Source of the DNA: an uncultured Clostridia bacterium
GTDB taxonomy: Bacteria > Bacillota > Clostridia > Monoglobales > Monoglobaceae
Direction: 5' to 3'
Assembly: GCA_947589045.1 (NCBI GenBank)
Contig: CANQBQ010000002.1
Coordinates: 1-64,000, forward strand
Length of the DNA stretch: 64,000 nt
Below the pieces are notes generated by a model. The model was not told where the DNA came from. It made no database searches and was given only the letters and a program-made list of their open reading frames with translations. Position 1 is the stretch's first letter, and every line of letters starts with the position of its first letter. Positions 633 to 12,521 of the stretch are shown here, piece by piece. The position numbers and the translations under genes were made by a program.

Positions 633-3197
633 TTGGAAGATTTTGAGGGCTCTAAGAAAAAGACGATGCGTTTTTTGACGGTCAGTCTTATTATCCTTAT
701 AATTATTTGCGTCGGCTCACTCTCGACGTTTGCGTGGGTCGTCAGCAAAAAGAACGAAAGCACGCTCAACAACGTGGGCGAGCTTTATATGCACGGAATG
801 AGTGAGAGAATATCCGACCATTTCGGAACTACGATAAGTCTTCGTATGGACCAGGTGGAGGCTATGGTGAGGAGCTTCCCGCCCGATGAGGTCGTATCGG
901 CGGAGAACACATACAGCGGTCTTGTCGAGCAGGCTAAAATATGCGAGTTCGGCTCTCTTGCGCTGTGCGACGATAACGGAAAATTTGAGGTGCTGTACGG
1001 CGACGCGCTCGAAATGATAGAGCCGATTTCGTTTTTCAACTCCTTAAACAACGGAGAGGAAAAGATTGGAGTCGCCCGAACTCAGGCGGGGGAAAAGGTT
1101 ATGATTTTGTGCGTACCCGCCAAGTACCCCATGCCGCAGGGCGGTACGTCCTCGGCTTTGGTGGCGTCGGTATCCGCGGATTACATAAGGCAAATACTCG
1201 CGCTTGACGCGACAGACCTTTTGACGTATTCCCACATCATAAGGCACGACGGAACCTATGTTATAAGAAGCGTTGACAGGGAAAAGGACAACTATTTTGA
1301 GAGAGCGCTGGAAAATCTTTCGGAATATGACGGAAAAACGCCTCAGATATATCTTGCCGAACTGCGTGCAAGTATGGAGGCGCACGAGGACTATTCCACC
1401 ATTATGATTATGGACAACGAGCGCAGGCATCTCTACTGCACGCCTTTGCCGTATACCGACTGGTATCTTATAACGGTTATGCCCTACGGTATGCTCGATG
1501 AAACGCTCAGCAGTCTGAGCGAGCAGGTGCTTATCTGCCTGTTTGTATCTTTGGGCGTGATACTGCTGGTGATTTCCATTATATTTGCGATGTACCTCAG
1601 AATGACGCAGAAGCAGATACGCGTGCTTGAGGACACCCGTCTCGAGGCGGTGCGCGCAAATAAGGCAAAGAGCGAGTTTTTGTCCAATATGAGCCACGAC
1701 ATACGAACTCCAATGAACGCCATAGTCGGTATGACGGCTATCGCTATGGCGAATATAGACAACAAGCCGCAGGTGCAGAACAGCCTGAAAAAGATTGCGG
1801 TTTCGGGCAAGCATCTGCTCGGACTTATAAACGATGTTCTCGATATGTCCAAGATAGAGAGCGGCAAGATGACATTGTCGCTCGAGCCGATTTCCCTGCG
1901 GGAGACGGTGGACAATATCGTAAGCATAATACAGCCGCAGATAAAATCCAAGTCGCAGAAGTTCGACGTGTTTATATACGACATAGAAAACGAGAACGTC
2001 TACTGCGACAGCGTTCGCTTAAATCAGGTGCTATTGAACCTGCTGTCGAACGCCATAAAATACACGCCCGAGGGCGGCAGTATATCTATGTCTCTGCGTG
2101 AGGAAAAGTCGCCCAAGGGAGACAACTTTGTGCGTATGAATATCTGCATTAAGGACAGCGGAATAGGTATGATCCCCGAATTTAAGGAGCAGATTTTCGA
2201 TTCGTTTACCCGAGAGGACAGAAAGCGCGTGCGAAAGACCGAGGGCTCGGGTCTGGGTATGGCGATAACCAAGTATATTGTTGACGCGATGGACGGAGAG
2301 ATAAGCGTTGAGAGCGAGAAGGGCGTCGGAAGTGAGTTCCGCGTCGTCATAGATTTGGAATGTGTGGACATATCCGAGGAGGAAATGGTGCTGCCGAACT
2401 GGAATATGCTCGTTGTGGACGATGACGAACAGCTACGCGACAGCGCGGCGGCGGCTCTTAGCTCAATCGGAATTAGCGCGGAGTGCGCTCCCGACGGCGA
2501 AAGCGCGATTGAGATGCTTAAGGAGAAGCACGGCAAGCCAAACGATTATCAGATAATTTTGCTTGACTGGAAGCTCCCCGGAATGGACGGTATCGAGACG
2601 GCGCGGGCGATACACAAACAGCTCGGCGACGACATACCGATTTTGCTCATATCCGCGTATGATTGGAGCGATATTGAGGACGAGGCGCGCGAGGCGGGCA
2701 TAAGCGGATTTATTCAGAAGCCGCTGTTTAAATCCACGCTGTATTTGGGCTTGAAAAAGTATGCCGGAGAAGAATTTGCCGACAACAGCAGTCCGAGCGA
2801 AAAGGTCTCACTCGACGGATTGAGAGTGCTTATCGCAGAGGACAACGAACTGAACTGGGAAATCGCTTCCGAACTGCTCAATTCACAACTCGGCGTGGAG
2901 ACCGAACTGGCGGAGAACGGTCAGATTTGCGTTGAAAAATTCAAAAATTCTCCCGTCGGATACTACGACGCGATACTTATGGACATCAGAATGCCTGTTA
3001 TGACGGGCTATGAGGCGACAGAAGCCATACGCGCGTCCGGCAGAGAGGACAGCGACGTGCTCATTGTGGCAATGACCGCAGACGTGTTCTCCGAGGACGT
3101 TGCAAAATGCTTAAAGTGCGGTATGAACGCTCACGTCGCAAAGCCGATAGACATAGATATGATAGGCAGAATTCTACAAAATCATCTTGGAAAATAA
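633..3197 (+). CDS. Membrane hybrid sensor histidine kinase, two receiver domains
   Basis: Residue numbers count from the GTG at 624. N-terminal membrane helix (about 16-40), extracellular sensor region of about 260 residues resembling Cache domains, second helix (about 300-325), then HisKA with SNMSHDIRTP (phospho-His 358) and a HATPase domain with an N-box near 470 and G-boxes DSGIGM and GSGLGMAITKYI. Two receiver domains follow, with phospho-acceptor Asp 648 (LLDWKLPGMDG) and Asp 787 (LMDIRMP). All catalytic motifs are intact. I prefer the TTG at 633 because AAGGGTGG (620-627) sits 5 nt before it, whereas the GTG at 624 lies inside that ribosome site. The Hpt gene lies upstream and tmk 23 nt downstream, so the three are probably co-transcribed. 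The ligand is unknown. Confidence 0.9.
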   Translation: MEDFEGSKKKTMRFLTVSLIILIIICVGSLSTFAWVVSKKNESTLNNVGELYMHGMSERISDHFGTTISLRMDQVEAMVRSFPPDEVVSAENTYSGLVEQAKICEFGSLALCDDNGKFEVLYGDALEMIEPISFFNSLNNGEEKIGVARTQAGEKVMILCVPAKYPMPQGGTSSALVASVSADYIRQILALDATDLLTYSHIIRHDGTYVIRSVDREKDNYFERALENLSEYDGKTPQIYLAELRASMEAHEDYSTIMIMDNERRHLYCTPLPYTDWYLITVMPYGMLDETLSSLSEQVLICLFVSLGVILLVISIIFAMYLRMTQKQIRVLEDTRLEAVRANKAKSEFLSNMSHDIRTPMNAIVGMTAIAMANIDNKPQVQNSLKKIAVSGKHLLGLINDVLDMSKIESGKMTLSLEPISLRETVDNIVSIIQPQIKSKSQKFDVFIYDIENENVYCDSVRLNQVLLNLLSNAIKYTPEGGSISMSLREEKSPKGDNFVRMNICIKDSGIGMIPEFKEQIFDSFTREDRKRVRKTEGSGLGMAITKYIVDAMDGEISVESEKGVGSEFRVVIDLECVDISEEEMVLPNWNMLVVDDDEQLRDSAAAALSSIGISAECAPDGESAIEMLKEKHGKPNDYQIILLDWKLPGMDGIETARAIHKQLGDDIPILLISAYDWSDIEDEAREAGISGFIQKPLFKSTLYLGLKKYAGEEFADNSSPSEKVSLDGLRVLIAEDNELNWEIASELLNSQLGVETELAENGQICVEKFKNSPVGYYDAILMDIRMPVMTGYEATEAIRASGREDSDVLIVAMTADVFSEDVAKCLKCGMNAHVAKPIDIDMIGRILQNHLGK

Positions 3198-8607: not shown

Positions 8608-10434
8608 ATGTGCGGGATAGTAGGATATGTCGGCGACAAGCAGGTTGCGCCGGTTTTGCTTGACGGACTCAGTAAGCTGGAATACAGAGGATACGACTCC
8701 GCCGGAATAGCGGTTTACGGCGATGGTAAAATAAATGTTGCAAAAGCGAGAGGCAGGCTCAAGGTTCTGAGCGAAATGACGAACGAGGGAAAGTCTGTTT
8801 CGGGAGTTATGGGAATAGGTCATACGCGCTGGGCGACGCACGGCGAGCCTTCCGACGTAAATTCGCATCCGCACGTTTCGAGCAGCGGACGTTTTGCGGT
8901 CGTTCACAACGGCATAATAGAGAACTATATTCCTCTCAAAAAGCGTCTTATGAATAAGGGCTACGAGTTCGTTTCGGAAACCGATACCGAGATAATAGCT
9001 CAGCTTATCGAATACTACTACAAGGGCGACCTTCTGGAAGCTCTTATAAAAGTTATCGAGCGAGTTGAGGGCTCGTATGCTCTCGGCGTGCTCTGCTCGG
9101 ACTATCCCGACAGGTTCGTTGCGGTGAGAAAGGCGAGCCCGCTCATCGTAGGCGTGGGAGAGGGCGAAAACTTTATCGCGTCCGACGTCACCGCAATACT
9201 CAAATACACCCGCAATGTGTATTATTTGGAGGACAACGAGATAGTCGTATTGAGCAAGGACAGCGTTGACGTCTACAATACCGACAAGGAGCTTGTCAAT
9301 AAAGAGATATTCAAGGTAGACTGGGATGTTTCGGCTGCCGAAAAGGGCGGTTACGAGCATTTTATGATGAAAGAAATAGAGGAACAGCCCAAGGCTATAC
9401 GCGACACCGTAAGCGCGAGAATAAAAGACGGAAAAATCGTGCTTGACAATGTTTCGCTTGACGAAAAATACATAAAGGGCATAAATAAAATTTTTATAGT
9501 TGCCTGCGGAAGCGCGTACCACGTCGGGGTCGTGGCGAAGTACGTCATTGAAAAGATGTGCCGTATACCCGTTGAGGCTCAAATCGCTTCGGAGTTCCGC
9601 TACTGCGACCCGATAGTTTCGTGCAACGATTTGGTCATTGTCATAAGTCAGTCGGGAGAGACCGCCGACACGCTTGCGGCGCTTAAAGAGGCGAAGGCGC
9701 GGGGCGCGAGGGTGCTTTCGATAGTGAATGTTGTCGGCTCGGCTATTGCGAATGCGTCGGACGACGTGCTCTATACGTGGGCGGGACCCGAGATTGCGGT
9801 TGCGACGACCAAGGCGTACAGCACACAGCTCTCGGTCGTATATATGCTTGCGGTCTATATGGCTGAAAAGCTGGGACTTCTCACGGTCGGAGAATACGCC
9901 AAAATGGTTCGTGAAATACAGGAGCTTCCCGATAAGGTCGCGGAAATACTCAAATCAAAAGAAAAGATACAGTATCTCGCGTCGCAGTTCTACAACTGCC
10001 ATTCCATTTTCTTTATAGGCAGAAATCTGGATTACGCGGTGTCGCTCGAAGGCTCTCTCAAGCTGAAGGAAATCTCGTATATCCACTCCGAGGCATATGC
10101 GGCGGGTGAACTCAAGCACGGCACCATTTCTCTGATTGAGGAGGGAACGCTTGTTGTCGCGCTTGTTACGGGCAACGAGCTGTTTGACAAGACGGTTTCC
10201 AACATAAAAGAGGTAAAGGCGCGCGGCGCGGTGGTTATGGCGGTCAGGACGGACGCGCATCTGCACGACGACGATATAGCCGACCACGTTATAACAATTC
10301 CCTCGACAAACGAGATGTTTTTACCGTCGCTCTCGGTTATACCGCTTCAGCTTTTCGGCTACTATGTTGCGTCGCTCAAGGGTCTTGATATTGACAAGCC
10401 GAGAAATTTGGCGAAATCGGTCACGGTTGAATAA
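8608..10434 (+). CDS. glmS: Glutamine--fructose-6-phosphate aminotransferase (isomerizing)
   Basis: Makes glucosamine-6-phosphate from fructose-6-phosphate and glutamine, the entry to peptidoglycan amino sugars. A 608-residue protein of full length. The N-terminal glutaminase starts MCGIVGYVG with catalytic Cys2 and includes GHTRWATHGEPS and HNGIIENY. Two SIS sugar-isomerase domains follow (about 285-425 and 455-600), with ACGSAYH, SQSGETADT and the C-terminal ending KPRNLAKSVTVE. AAGGAGG is ideally placed before the ATG. It is a single-gene unit with its own promoter. The following hairpin at 10553 lies beyond an intervening promoter. Confidence 0.97.
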   Translation: MCGIVGYVGDKQVAPVLLDGLSKLEYRGYDSAGIAVYGDGKINVAKARGRLKVLSEMTNEGKSVSGVMGIGHTRWATHGEPSDVNSHPHVSSSGRFAVVHNGIIENYIPLKKRLMNKGYEFVSETDTEIIAQLIEYYYKGDLLEALIKVIERVEGSYALGVLCSDYPDRFVAVRKASPLIVGVGEGENFIASDVTAILKYTRNVYYLEDNEIVVLSKDSVDVYNTDKELVNKEIFKVDWDVSAAEKGGYEHFMMKEIEEQPKAIRDTVSARIKDGKIVLDNVSLDEKYIKGINKIFIVACGSAYHVGVVAKYVIEKMCRIPVEAQIASEFRYCDPIVSCNDLVIVISQSGETADTLAALKEAKARGARVLSIVNVVGSAIANASDDVLYTWAGPEIAVATTKAYSTQLSVVYMLAVYMAEKLGLLTVGEYAKMVREIQELPDKVAEILKSKEKIQYLASQFYNCHSIFFIGRNLDYAVSLEGSLKLKEISYIHSEAYAAGELKHGTISLIEEGTLVVALVTGNELFDKTVSNIKEVKARGAVVMAVRTDAHLHDDDIADHVITIPSTNEMFLPSLSVIPLQLFGYYVASLKGLDIDKPRNLAKSVTVE

Positions 10435-10482: not shown

Positions 10483-10511
10483 TTGCATTTTGTAAGATGT
10501 AAGAGTATAAT
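10483..10511 (+). promoter_or_regulatory. Sigma-A promoter between glmS and amt
   Basis: TTGCAT at 10483-10488, 17-nt spacer, TATAAT at 10506-10511. The predicted start near 10518 is only about 35 nt ahead of a terminator-like hairpin. Confidence 0.75.
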
Positions 10512-10552
10512 TTTAGTATAAAAATTAAATATGCGTATAAATTTAAGCACAA

Positions 10553-10591
10553 AGGCGTGTTTGTTCCGAGGGGGAACGGACACGTCTTTTT
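10553..10591 (+). terminator. Terminator or attenuator ahead of amt
   Basis: 15-bp stem with three G-U pairs: AGGCGTGTTTGTTCC (10553-10567), 5-nt loop, GGAACGGACACGTCT (10573-10587), followed by TTTT. It could end glmS read-through. Because a promoter lies just upstream, it could also release a short RNA of about 75 nt or act as an attenuator. Confidence 0.8.
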
Positions 10592-10638
10592 GATTTTACG
10601 GCTTGTCTTATATGTATATTACGAAATTATTTGAAAGA

Positions 10639-10702
10639 GGGTGTCTTTTGAGATGATTGTATCTAAAGACCCATTCCGACAGAAAACAGAGGGGAAAGTC
10701 GG
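10639..10702 (+). promoter_or_regulatory. Two further stem-loops in the amt leader
   Basis: First stem: GGG/CCC, TCTTT/AAAGA and AGAT/ATCT stacked with two 2-nt TG bulges on the 5' side and a 6-nt loop GATTGT (10639-10672). Second: CCGAC (10676-10680) with GTCGG (10698-10702), then TTTT. The pair loosely resembles ANTAR-type dual hairpins, but the loop lacks the usual A1/G4 identities, so I do not assign that class. Confidence 0.4.
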
Positions 10703-10766
10703 TTTTGCGGTCTTGGGCAGGAGTTATTAAAAAGTCATAAAGTCATTTTGAAAGGGGTTAAGAGTT

Positions 10767-12521
10767 ATGGATTTAATGAGTTTATTGAACGAACAGATTT
10801 TCAGCGTATGGTTTTTGATAGGCGCGGCTCTCGTATTCTTTATGCAGGCGGGCTTCGCGATGGTGGAGGCGGGCTTTACAAGAGCTAAGAACTCCGGTAA
10901 CATCATTATGAAGAACCTTATGGATTTCTGTATAGGAACCGTAATGTTCATCGCGATAGGCTTCGGCTTGCTGTGCGGTGAGGACGCGCTCGGCGGATTT
11001 CTCGGTTTGCCCACGATGGGAATTTTTACCGACTATGCAAATTTTGATTGGTCGAGCTTCGTATTCAACCTGGTGTTCTGCGCAACTACCGCTACCATCG
11101 TTTCCGGCGCTATGGCGGAGAGAACCAAGTTCTCGGCTTACTGCGTATACTCCGCTGTAATATCGGCGGTCGTATATCCGATTGAGGCGCACTGGATTTG
11201 GGGCGGTGGCTGGCTCTCACAGCTCGGCTTCCACGATTATGCGGGTTCTACCGCGATACATATGGTCGGCGGTTTGTCGGCGCTCATCGGCGCGGCTATC
11301 CTCGGCGCTCGTATCGGTAAGTTTACAAAGGGCAAGGACGGAAAGGTTCAGGTTCACGCATTCCCCGGTCACAACATAGTTATCGGCGCGCTCGGCTGCT
11401 TTATACTGTGGTTCGGCTGGTACGGCTTCAACGGCGCGGCGGCTACCAACGCATCAGAACTCGGTTCGATATTCCTCACCACGACTGTTGCCCCCGCTGT
11501 GGCGACCGTTACCTGTATGCTGTTTACGTGGATAAAGTACGGCAAGCCCGATGTTTCGATGTGTCTTAACGCATCTCTTGCGGGTCTGGTTGCGATTACC
11601 GCTCCCTGTGATGTGGTAACCTGCGGCGCTGCGGCAGTTATCGGTATTGTTGCAGGTCTTTTGACCCCGTTCGGCGTATGGCTTCTCGACAACGTGCTTC
11701 ACGTTGACGACCCTGTCGGCGCGGTTGCTGTCCACTTCTTAAACGGTTTGTGGGGTACTCTTGCGGTAGGTATATTCGCAAATCCCTCGTCGCCCGGCTT
11801 TGAGACCGCGGGAATACTTCCCGGCTTGACCGCAGGCGGCGGATTTACGCAGCTCGGTATCCAGGCTCTCGGTATGGTTACGGTATGCGCTTGGACGGCT
11901 GTACTTATGACGATATTCTTTATTATAATCAAGCATACGATAGGACTTCGCGTAAGTGCCGAGGAAGAAATCGGAGGTCTTGATATTTACGAGCACGGTA
12001 TCGCTTCGGCTTATGCCGACTTTATGCCCTCGGCTCTCGCTTCGAGCGAAGGTGCGGTAGCTCCCGATGCGTCCGACGCGGCTCCGATGCCCAAGGCGGT
12101 TCCGATTGTTAAGGTTCCCAAGGAAGCGGGCGGCGAAGCGGCTGACGCGGATGGTCATCCGATAACGAAGATTACGATTGTCTGCAAGGAGTCCAAGTTT
12201 GAAGCTCTCAAGCATTCACTCGGCGAAATCGGCGTAACGGGTATGACGGTATCTCACGTTCTCGGCTGCGGTATGCAGAAAGGTAAGAGCGAATATTACC
12301 GCGGTGTTGCGGTTGAAGCAACTCTGCTTCCCAAGATTAAGATTGACATCGTTGTATGCCGTGTTCCGGTTCAGGATGTTATCGAGACTGCGGTTAAGAC
12401 GCTTTACACGGGTCATATCGGCGACGGTAAGATATTCGTATACGGCGTTCAGGACGTCATAAAGGTTCGTACCGGCGAGTCGGGCTACGACGCTATGACT
12501 GAGGACGGCGAAAACTGCTGA
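10767..12521 (+). CDS. Ammonium transporter fused to a PII signalling domain
   Basis: A 584-residue fusion. Residues 1 to about 405 form an Amt/Mep/Rh channel of about 11 helices opening with an AALVFFMQAGFAMVEAGFTR segment. The twin pore histidines are His165 (AIHMVGG) and His323 (VHFLNGLWG). A linker rich in Ala, Pro and Asp (about 420-460) leads to a complete C-terminal PII/GlnK domain (about 463-575) with a T-loop QKGKSEYYRGV, Tyr511 matching the residue modified in classical PII proteins, and LLPKIKIDIVV. In most bacteria GlnK is a separate protein that plugs the Amt trimer; here the gate is tethered. Such fusions are known in some clostridia. The leader upstream suggests RNA-level control. 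Confidence 0.95.
   Translation: MDLMSLLNEQIFSVWFLIGAALVFFMQAGFAMVEAGFTRAKNSGNIIMKNLMDFCIGTVMFIAIGFGLLCGEDALGGFLGLPTMGIFTDYANFDWSSFVFNLVFCATTATIVSGAMAERTKFSAYCVYSAVISAVVYPIEAHWIWGGGWLSQLGFHDYAGSTAIHMVGGLSALIGAAILGARIGKFTKGKDGKVQVHAFPGHNIVIGALGCFILWFGWYGFNGAAATNASELGSIFLTTTVAPAVATVTCMLFTWIKYGKPDVSMCLNASLAGLVAITAPCDVVTCGAAAVIGIVAGLLTPFGVWLLDNVLHVDDPVGAVAVHFLNGLWGTLAVGIFANPSSPGFETAGILPGLTAGGGFTQLGIQALGMVTVCAWTAVLMTIFFIIIKHTIGLRVSAEEEIGGLDIYEHGIASAYADFMPSALASSEGAVAPDASDAAPMPKAVPIVKVPKEAGGEAADADGHPITKITIVCKESKFEALKHSLGEIGVTGMTVSHVLGCGMQKGKSEYYRGVAVEATLLPKIKIDIVVCRVPVQDVIETAVKTLYTGHIGDGKIFVYGVQDVIKVRTGESGYDAMTEDGENC

Follow-up and report, generated by a model that had tools for sequence, protein, structure and literature searches.

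A candidate single-hexaloop ANTAR attenuator before nitrogen-assimilation genes of Clostridia

An ammonium transporter gene fused to a P-II domain (amt, 10767-12521, + strand; Pfam PF00909 with E 8e-118 and PF00543 with E 2e-23) lies downstream of an RNA leader that can fold in two mutually exclusive ways. It is very probable that this leader represents ANTAR antitermination of nitrogen-assimilation genes in a variant that uses a single hexaloop; the protein binding, the nitrogen response and the transcript ends are what we infer. The first-pass annotation of this DNA had raised regulated termination of amt, dependent on a protein, and this is well supported by the two exclusive folds, a conserved loop rule and an association with ANTAR genes. 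In what follows, the window is the whole 64-kb stretch of DNA that was analysed, and positions refer to it.

Competing folds in the amt leader

A promoter-like site, recognized from the sequence at 10483-10511 (+ strand), was found exactly as the first-pass annotation had described it, with TTGCAT at 10483-10488, a 17-nt spacer and TATAAT at 10506-10511, and from it an RNA start is predicted near 10518. The -10 box is perfect. The -35 box is weak (3/6 consensus matches), and because our promoter scan works by a 4-of-6 rule, the site is unlisted by it. The ribosome-binding site of amt, GAAAGGGG, can be read at 10750-10757 (+ strand).

Between these lies an intrinsic terminator (10551-10591, + strand), with arms at 10551-10567 and 10573-10589 and a U-tract at 10587-10591. 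The hairpin at 10551-10589 has 17 pairs (7 G-C) and a 5-nt loop, runs into the T-run at 10587-10591 and reaches -25 kcal/mol. A hairpin of 15 bp, ending the RNA about 75 nt after its start, had been proposed here; the terminator is confirmed, with 17 pairs rather than 15, and the RNA end is a prediction. The 83 nt at 10518-10600 fold far more stably than shuffled sequence (z = -6.35, with none of 200 shuffles equally stable). The two additional stems that had been placed before amt did not hold up: the fold of 10595-10770 is no more stable than that of shuffled sequence (z = +0.65), and stems downstream of the terminator were seen in just one relative, which is uninformative given an Amt 98% identical. 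The same stretch between the terminator and amt contains a 25-codon ORF, MIVSKDPFRQKTEGKVGFAVLGRSY (window 10653-10730, + strand). Its frame is kept in the close relative G001, but three of the four codon changes there replace the residue, and the ORF is therefore without sign of coding.

The 5' arm of the terminator holds the loop and the 3' strand of a P2-type ANTAR hairpin, a candidate antiterminator, at 10544-10563 (+ strand). ANTAR target RNAs are characterized by a six-base loop with A at position 1, G at position 4 and a C-G closing pair, in a P2 hairpin that overlaps the terminator (PMC3369931). All of this is present in the window: the hairpin UAAGCAC[AAAGGC]GUGUUUG has a stem of 7 bp (10544-10550/10557-10563) worth about -5 kcal/mol, a hexaloop AAAGGC at 10551-10556 with A1 at 10551 and G4 at 10554, and the C-G closing pair. 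The earlier statement that the leader mismatches the ANTAR loop identities thus does not apply to P2; it stands only for P1, the upstream hairpin of known targets, of which no loop is present. P2 and the terminator are mutually exclusive, the latter beginning at loop position 1 of P2. Indeed, P2 takes the first 13 bases of the terminator 5' arm, six as its loop and seven as its 3' strand, and the terminator therefore cannot form together with it.

It had also been stated that nothing upstream could pair with the terminator arm, whereas two such segments exist. One is the P2 5' strand (10544-10550, 7 bp, with the hexaloop); the other is the leader segment UAAAUAUGC at 10526-10534 (+ strand), a possible extra competitor of the terminator that forms 9 bp with 10555-10563. 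The fold of 10518-10563 with the UAAAUAUGC pairing reaches -6.3 kcal/mol, and its conservation, being limited to the close relative G001, argues for it weakly. In the absence of protein, the terminator is calculated to exceed the forced P2 fold in stability by about 12 kcal/mol, and any switch must therefore be kinetic or protein-stabilized.

Counting both strands, the 64-kb window holds a single P2-type hairpin that overlaps a terminator, and 5000 dinucleotide shuffles of the intergenic region gave none. A known Rfam riboswitch or leader family was rejected as an identity for the leader: across the whole window, the Rfam covariance models gave only a tRNA at gathering score, and matches in the leader were at chance level.

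We observed the same arrangement elsewhere in the genome. Searching the genome for C[AAAGNN]G combined with a matching arm of a terminator produced 86 raw matches. Only three of these combine a P2 stem of 7-8 bp with a terminator that overlaps it, and each stands in front of nitrogen genes or of an operon that includes glutamine synthetase III (GSIII); as the pattern covered only AAAGNN loops, three is a minimum for the genome. The three elements precede amt-PII (window 10544-10591, + strand), a split glutamate-synthase cluster (G000:C2:110455) and an operon of asp/asn-tRNA synthetase and GSIII (G000:C6:21005). The latter two have TTGACA-type promoters with the -10 box immediately 5' of the hairpin, and both were also recovered by a promoter-plus-hairpin model. 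The leader of the tRNA synthetase and GSIII operon (L094, from G000:C6) has a second A1/G4 hexaloop at 2994-3007, TGTT[AATGAA]AACA, closed by T-A; it overlaps the P2 5' strand, would exclude the full P2 and is possibly of chance origin.

Distribution of the element and absence of P1

We scanned the leaders of orthologous genes (amt, GSIII and glutamate synthase) in 60 related genomes and found leaders of all three that bear the same hairpin-plus-terminator element. Conservation of the stems in relatives had been set as a check by the first-pass annotation, and for this element it is borne out across Clostridia. In two genera (g5 and g8), an amt without its own element sits behind GSIII, whose leader has one. 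Among named clostridial organisms, the element was found in 51 of 79 amt leaders, a set drawn from Lachnospiraceae, Butyrivibrio, Ruminococcus, Roseburia, Eubacterium, Oribacterium, a Monoglobus and others. Several amt genes are preceded by two single-hexaloop attenuators in tandem, each unit with its own terminator (L227, L233, L234, L248, L206, L226, L262, L208 and L216).

The promoter-plus-P2 model located the element also before gdhA-guaA-pyrG (G058), gdhA (G057) and nadE (G057), and in two places without a clear nitrogen link, an ATP-synthase operon (G005) and a permuted ATP-grasp operon (G012). For these genes, gdhA, the ATP-synthase A chain and NAD synthase are confirmed by Pfam, and guaA, pyrG and ATP-grasp were named by eye. 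Below about 40 bits the model (R1) matches any strong promoter; weak matches and per-genome tallies were left unused.

P1 is consistently missing from these elements. It is present in the RNA of 0/80 promoter-proximal elements of relatives, and in 63 elements the 60 nt preceding P2 contain no P1-like hairpin. The position of P2 explains this: its stem follows the -10 box by 5-18 nt (mode 11) in 65 of the 69 distinct elements close to a promoter, which puts it at the transcription start or shortly beyond and leaves no room for P1. The gap between the -10 box and P2 is 32 nt in the window, longer than in most relatives. One could thus suppose that the window carries a dual-hexaloop target whose P1 is degenerate or was unrecognized, for instance in the AU-rich leader at 10518-10543. 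These 26 nt could fit a small hairpin, and P1, called the recruitment hairpin, is required in vivo for eutP (PMC3369931; PMC8934654). Moreover, a true dual element exists in G052, from another family of the class, where GATGC[AACGAG]GCATC is followed by AAAGC[AAAGGC]GCTTT. The detection of that element indicates that our scan sees P1 where it is present, however, and the window has no A..G.. hexamer between the predicted RNA start and P2. Given also the position of P2 and the missing P1 in relatives, we regard a hidden P1 as unlikely.

Compared with the dual-hexaloop ANTAR family, the window has a P2 of at least 3 bp with an A1/G4 hexaloop that overlaps the terminator 5' arm, and its genome encodes an ANTAR protein. 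What the window lacks is a P1 obeying that loop rule at 5-12 nt before P2, and membership of that family fails on this point.

For EutV, binding to P1 alone or to P2 alone does not differ significantly from binding to the two combined (PMC8934654), from which it follows that one hexaloop can suffice for binding. In the structure of EutV, the dimer grips one hexaloop at a time, and the extent of natural single-hexaloop sites was left as a question (PMC8934654).

The ANTAR protein and its association with the element

The genome encodes one ANTAR protein (PF03861, a single match of 62.8 bits), whose gene is directly 3' of the glutamine synthetase gene glnA. Pfam recognizes only the ANTAR domain in it; by comparison with PDB, the protein matches EutV, AmiR and Rv1626. 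At the place of the expected phosphorylated Asp, assigned by eye, its receiver-like part has Asn (VNTPL / INTPL), as do five aligned relatives, and it thus departs from a phosphorylation-controlled response regulator of the EutV type, which has the receiver Asp. Control by a partner protein appears more likely than control by phosphorylation, because of this Asn and because of the parallel with AmiR, a pseudo-receiver protein controlled by its partner AmiC (PMC8934654). As a speculative candidate for such a partner, we point to the neighboring glutamine synthetase.

GSIII is found both with and without an ANTAR gene in the genome, and therefore provides a natural control. The element precedes GSIII in 24/27 genomes with an ANTAR gene versus 2/21 genomes without (p = 2.6e-8), and the difference is also seen when counting by genus (10/13 versus 1/8, p = 0.0075). 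In 26 of 33 genomes with ANTAR, including that of the window, glnA-type and ANTAR matches lie together on one strand (hand count).

These observations bear on the identity of the protein that would read the hexaloop. Two genomes of one genus have a perfect promoter, a hexaloop hairpin and a terminator before GSIII (G042:C85:4123-4199, L117; G049:C154:4863-4939, L116), and a search of both detected no ANTAR gene, nor the glnA-type match usual beside it; either loss or incomplete assembly may be the cause. Furthermore, at the places of the EutV loop contacts Arg142, Lys149, Glu160 and Tyr164, the ANTAR protein of the window's genome has Met, Lys, Glu and His, keeping two of four, with AmiR likewise having His at the place of Tyr164 (residue names from PMC8934654, a shift of two bringing the published numbering onto the PDB chain, alignment read by eye). 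Both points would fit recognition of the hexaloop by a non-ANTAR RNA-binding protein or a small RNA. Against such a reader, the loop rule is exactly that of ANTAR targets, the element and the ANTAR gene co-occur strongly, and in G044 the glnA-ANTAR operon is itself preceded by the element. We consider a non-ANTAR reader improbable and retain the ANTAR protein in this role.

In Monoglobus-like relatives, units of promoter, hexaloop and terminator occur with no obvious gene directly 3' (L300, G033:C58:4774; L307, G036:C19; L315, G035:C13; L309, G007:C40), and these are possibly stand-alone small RNAs that could titrate the ANTAR protein. By extension, the amt locus itself might mainly yield a short stable RNA of about 75 nt acting in trans, for example through ANTAR titration as proposed for EutX; an RNA of this kind, with the P2 sequence exposed, is also the predicted default product. 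Yet in most genomes the element is directly before nitrogen genes, as expected for attenuation in cis, and none of our findings indicates a separate function of the terminated product, so that we give the trans-acting RNA very little credence relative to antitermination of amt.

In the 79 amt leaders, A and G at loop positions 1 and 4 were found in 51, versus 3 or fewer for each of the other 15 combinations. The closing pair C-G and the loop size of six were likewise each found in 51, versus 8 or fewer for any other pair or any other size. The fourth P2 pair, which is outside the scan requirements, is formed in 86 of 96 distinct elements versus 44 expected by partner shuffling (never above 58 in 2000 shuffles); for the fifth pair the figures are 57 and 40. 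The 96 elements include close relatives and are not independent events, while the named set spans many genera. That we are dealing with an ordinary terminator plus a chance inner hairpin is scarcely credible: glmS, whose end at 10434 is 116 nt before the terminator, may use it, or it may be a constitutive brake, but the loop controls favor A1/G4, C-G and size six, the shuffles and the single match in 64 kb speak against chance, and the element is conserved before amt, GSIII and glutamate synthase despite differing upstream genes.

Proposed mechanism and relation to known systems

We propose that, by default, the nascent RNA would fold the 17-bp terminator and stop about 75 nt after its start. 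An active ANTAR protein, encoded beside glnA, would bind the hexaloop of the hairpin at 10544-10563; P2 would then occupy the terminator 5' arm, no terminator would form, and transcription would read through into amt-PII. With this element also standing before the glutamate-synthase cluster and the GSIII operon, the cell would induce ammonium uptake at the same time as both arms of assimilation, presumably under nitrogen shortage. A single hairpin, in most relatives at the 5' end of the RNA, would perform the whole task.

On balance we favor the broader view that many Clostridia run a nitrogen-assimilation regulon by start-proximal single-hexaloop ANTAR attenuators without a recruitment hairpin. 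If this is true, the two-hairpin model describes one sub-type, and another route of ANTAR loading must exist, such as position at the 5' end, contact with the polymerase, or pre-formed dimers under the control of glutamine synthetase. In the work on EutV, both hexaloops were obligatory in vivo; here, in contrast, nearly all of the 96 distinct terminator-overlapping elements are without P1. They precede genes for ammonium transporters, glutamine synthetase III, glutamate synthase and glutamate dehydrogenase, and some are in cultured organisms (Butyrivibrio, Ruminococcus flavefaciens and Eubacterium oxidoreducens). A short template would now be enough to put the single-hexaloop question to a direct in vitro test, and for Clostridia whose ANTAR gene sits with glnA the elements suggest a candidate mechanism of nitrogen control.

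In solvent-forming Clostridium, GlnR is reportedly an ANTAR protein encoded beside glnA, for which antitermination of nitrogen genes has been proposed. The ANTAR protein studied here resembles it in that its gene adjoins glnA and in the antitermination of nitrogen genes proposed for it; we found no paper in the open literature on the RNA target of the clostridial glnA-linked ANTAR protein or GlnR.

The clostridial elements share with the targets of EutV (eutP), NasR (nasF) and AmiR (amiE) the A1/G4 hexaloop, the C-G closing pair, the overlap of P2 with the terminator, the nitrogen-related genes and the ANTAR protein (PMC3369931). The loop, the closing pair and the R at loop position 5 of the published 13-mer AGCAANGRRGCUY (PMC3369931) also recur in the core of the clostridial P2. 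Unlike those targets, the clostridial elements are without P1, are mostly at the RNA 5' end and serve several operons per genome, and the receiver part of the ANTAR protein is without Asp. They agree with the single-hexaloop site proposed from the EutV-RNA structure in having one hexaloop as the minimal binding unit (PMC8934654). That proposal concerned sites free of the time limit of transcription and held P1 obligatory for antitermination, whereas the clostridial single hexaloops overlap terminators.

ANTAR control of amt, P-II and glutamine/glutamate synthase genes was predicted earlier in Desulfotomaculum, Pelobacter and others (PMC3369931), and our elements likewise precede amt, P-II and glutamate/glutamine synthase genes. 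Those regulons were found by a dual-hairpin model, which the clostridial single-hairpin elements would fail. In the open literature, natural single-hexaloop sites are raised only as a possibility, PMC8934654 being the sole paper with both terms. An ANTAR nitrogen regulon is therefore a known idea; the single-hexaloop variant is apparently new, although not certainly so, and priority is limited to the open literature.

Finally, we noted a short RNA, with its own promoter, the sequence AAAGGCAAAGCCGYAAGGGTTATGCC and a terminator, which is repeated in the genome (G000:C29:8534, C29:1965, C20:8140, C28:15673 and C4:58068; L303, L304, L305, L317 and L310) and has similar copies in L306 and L312. 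Rfam gave no match for it. On the opposite strand of L303, L305 and L306, a small hydrophobic ORF, MVYTYIMMYLITLIVLILTIKK, with a strong ribosome-binding site converges on the short RNA, and the two together look like a type I toxin-antitoxin pair.
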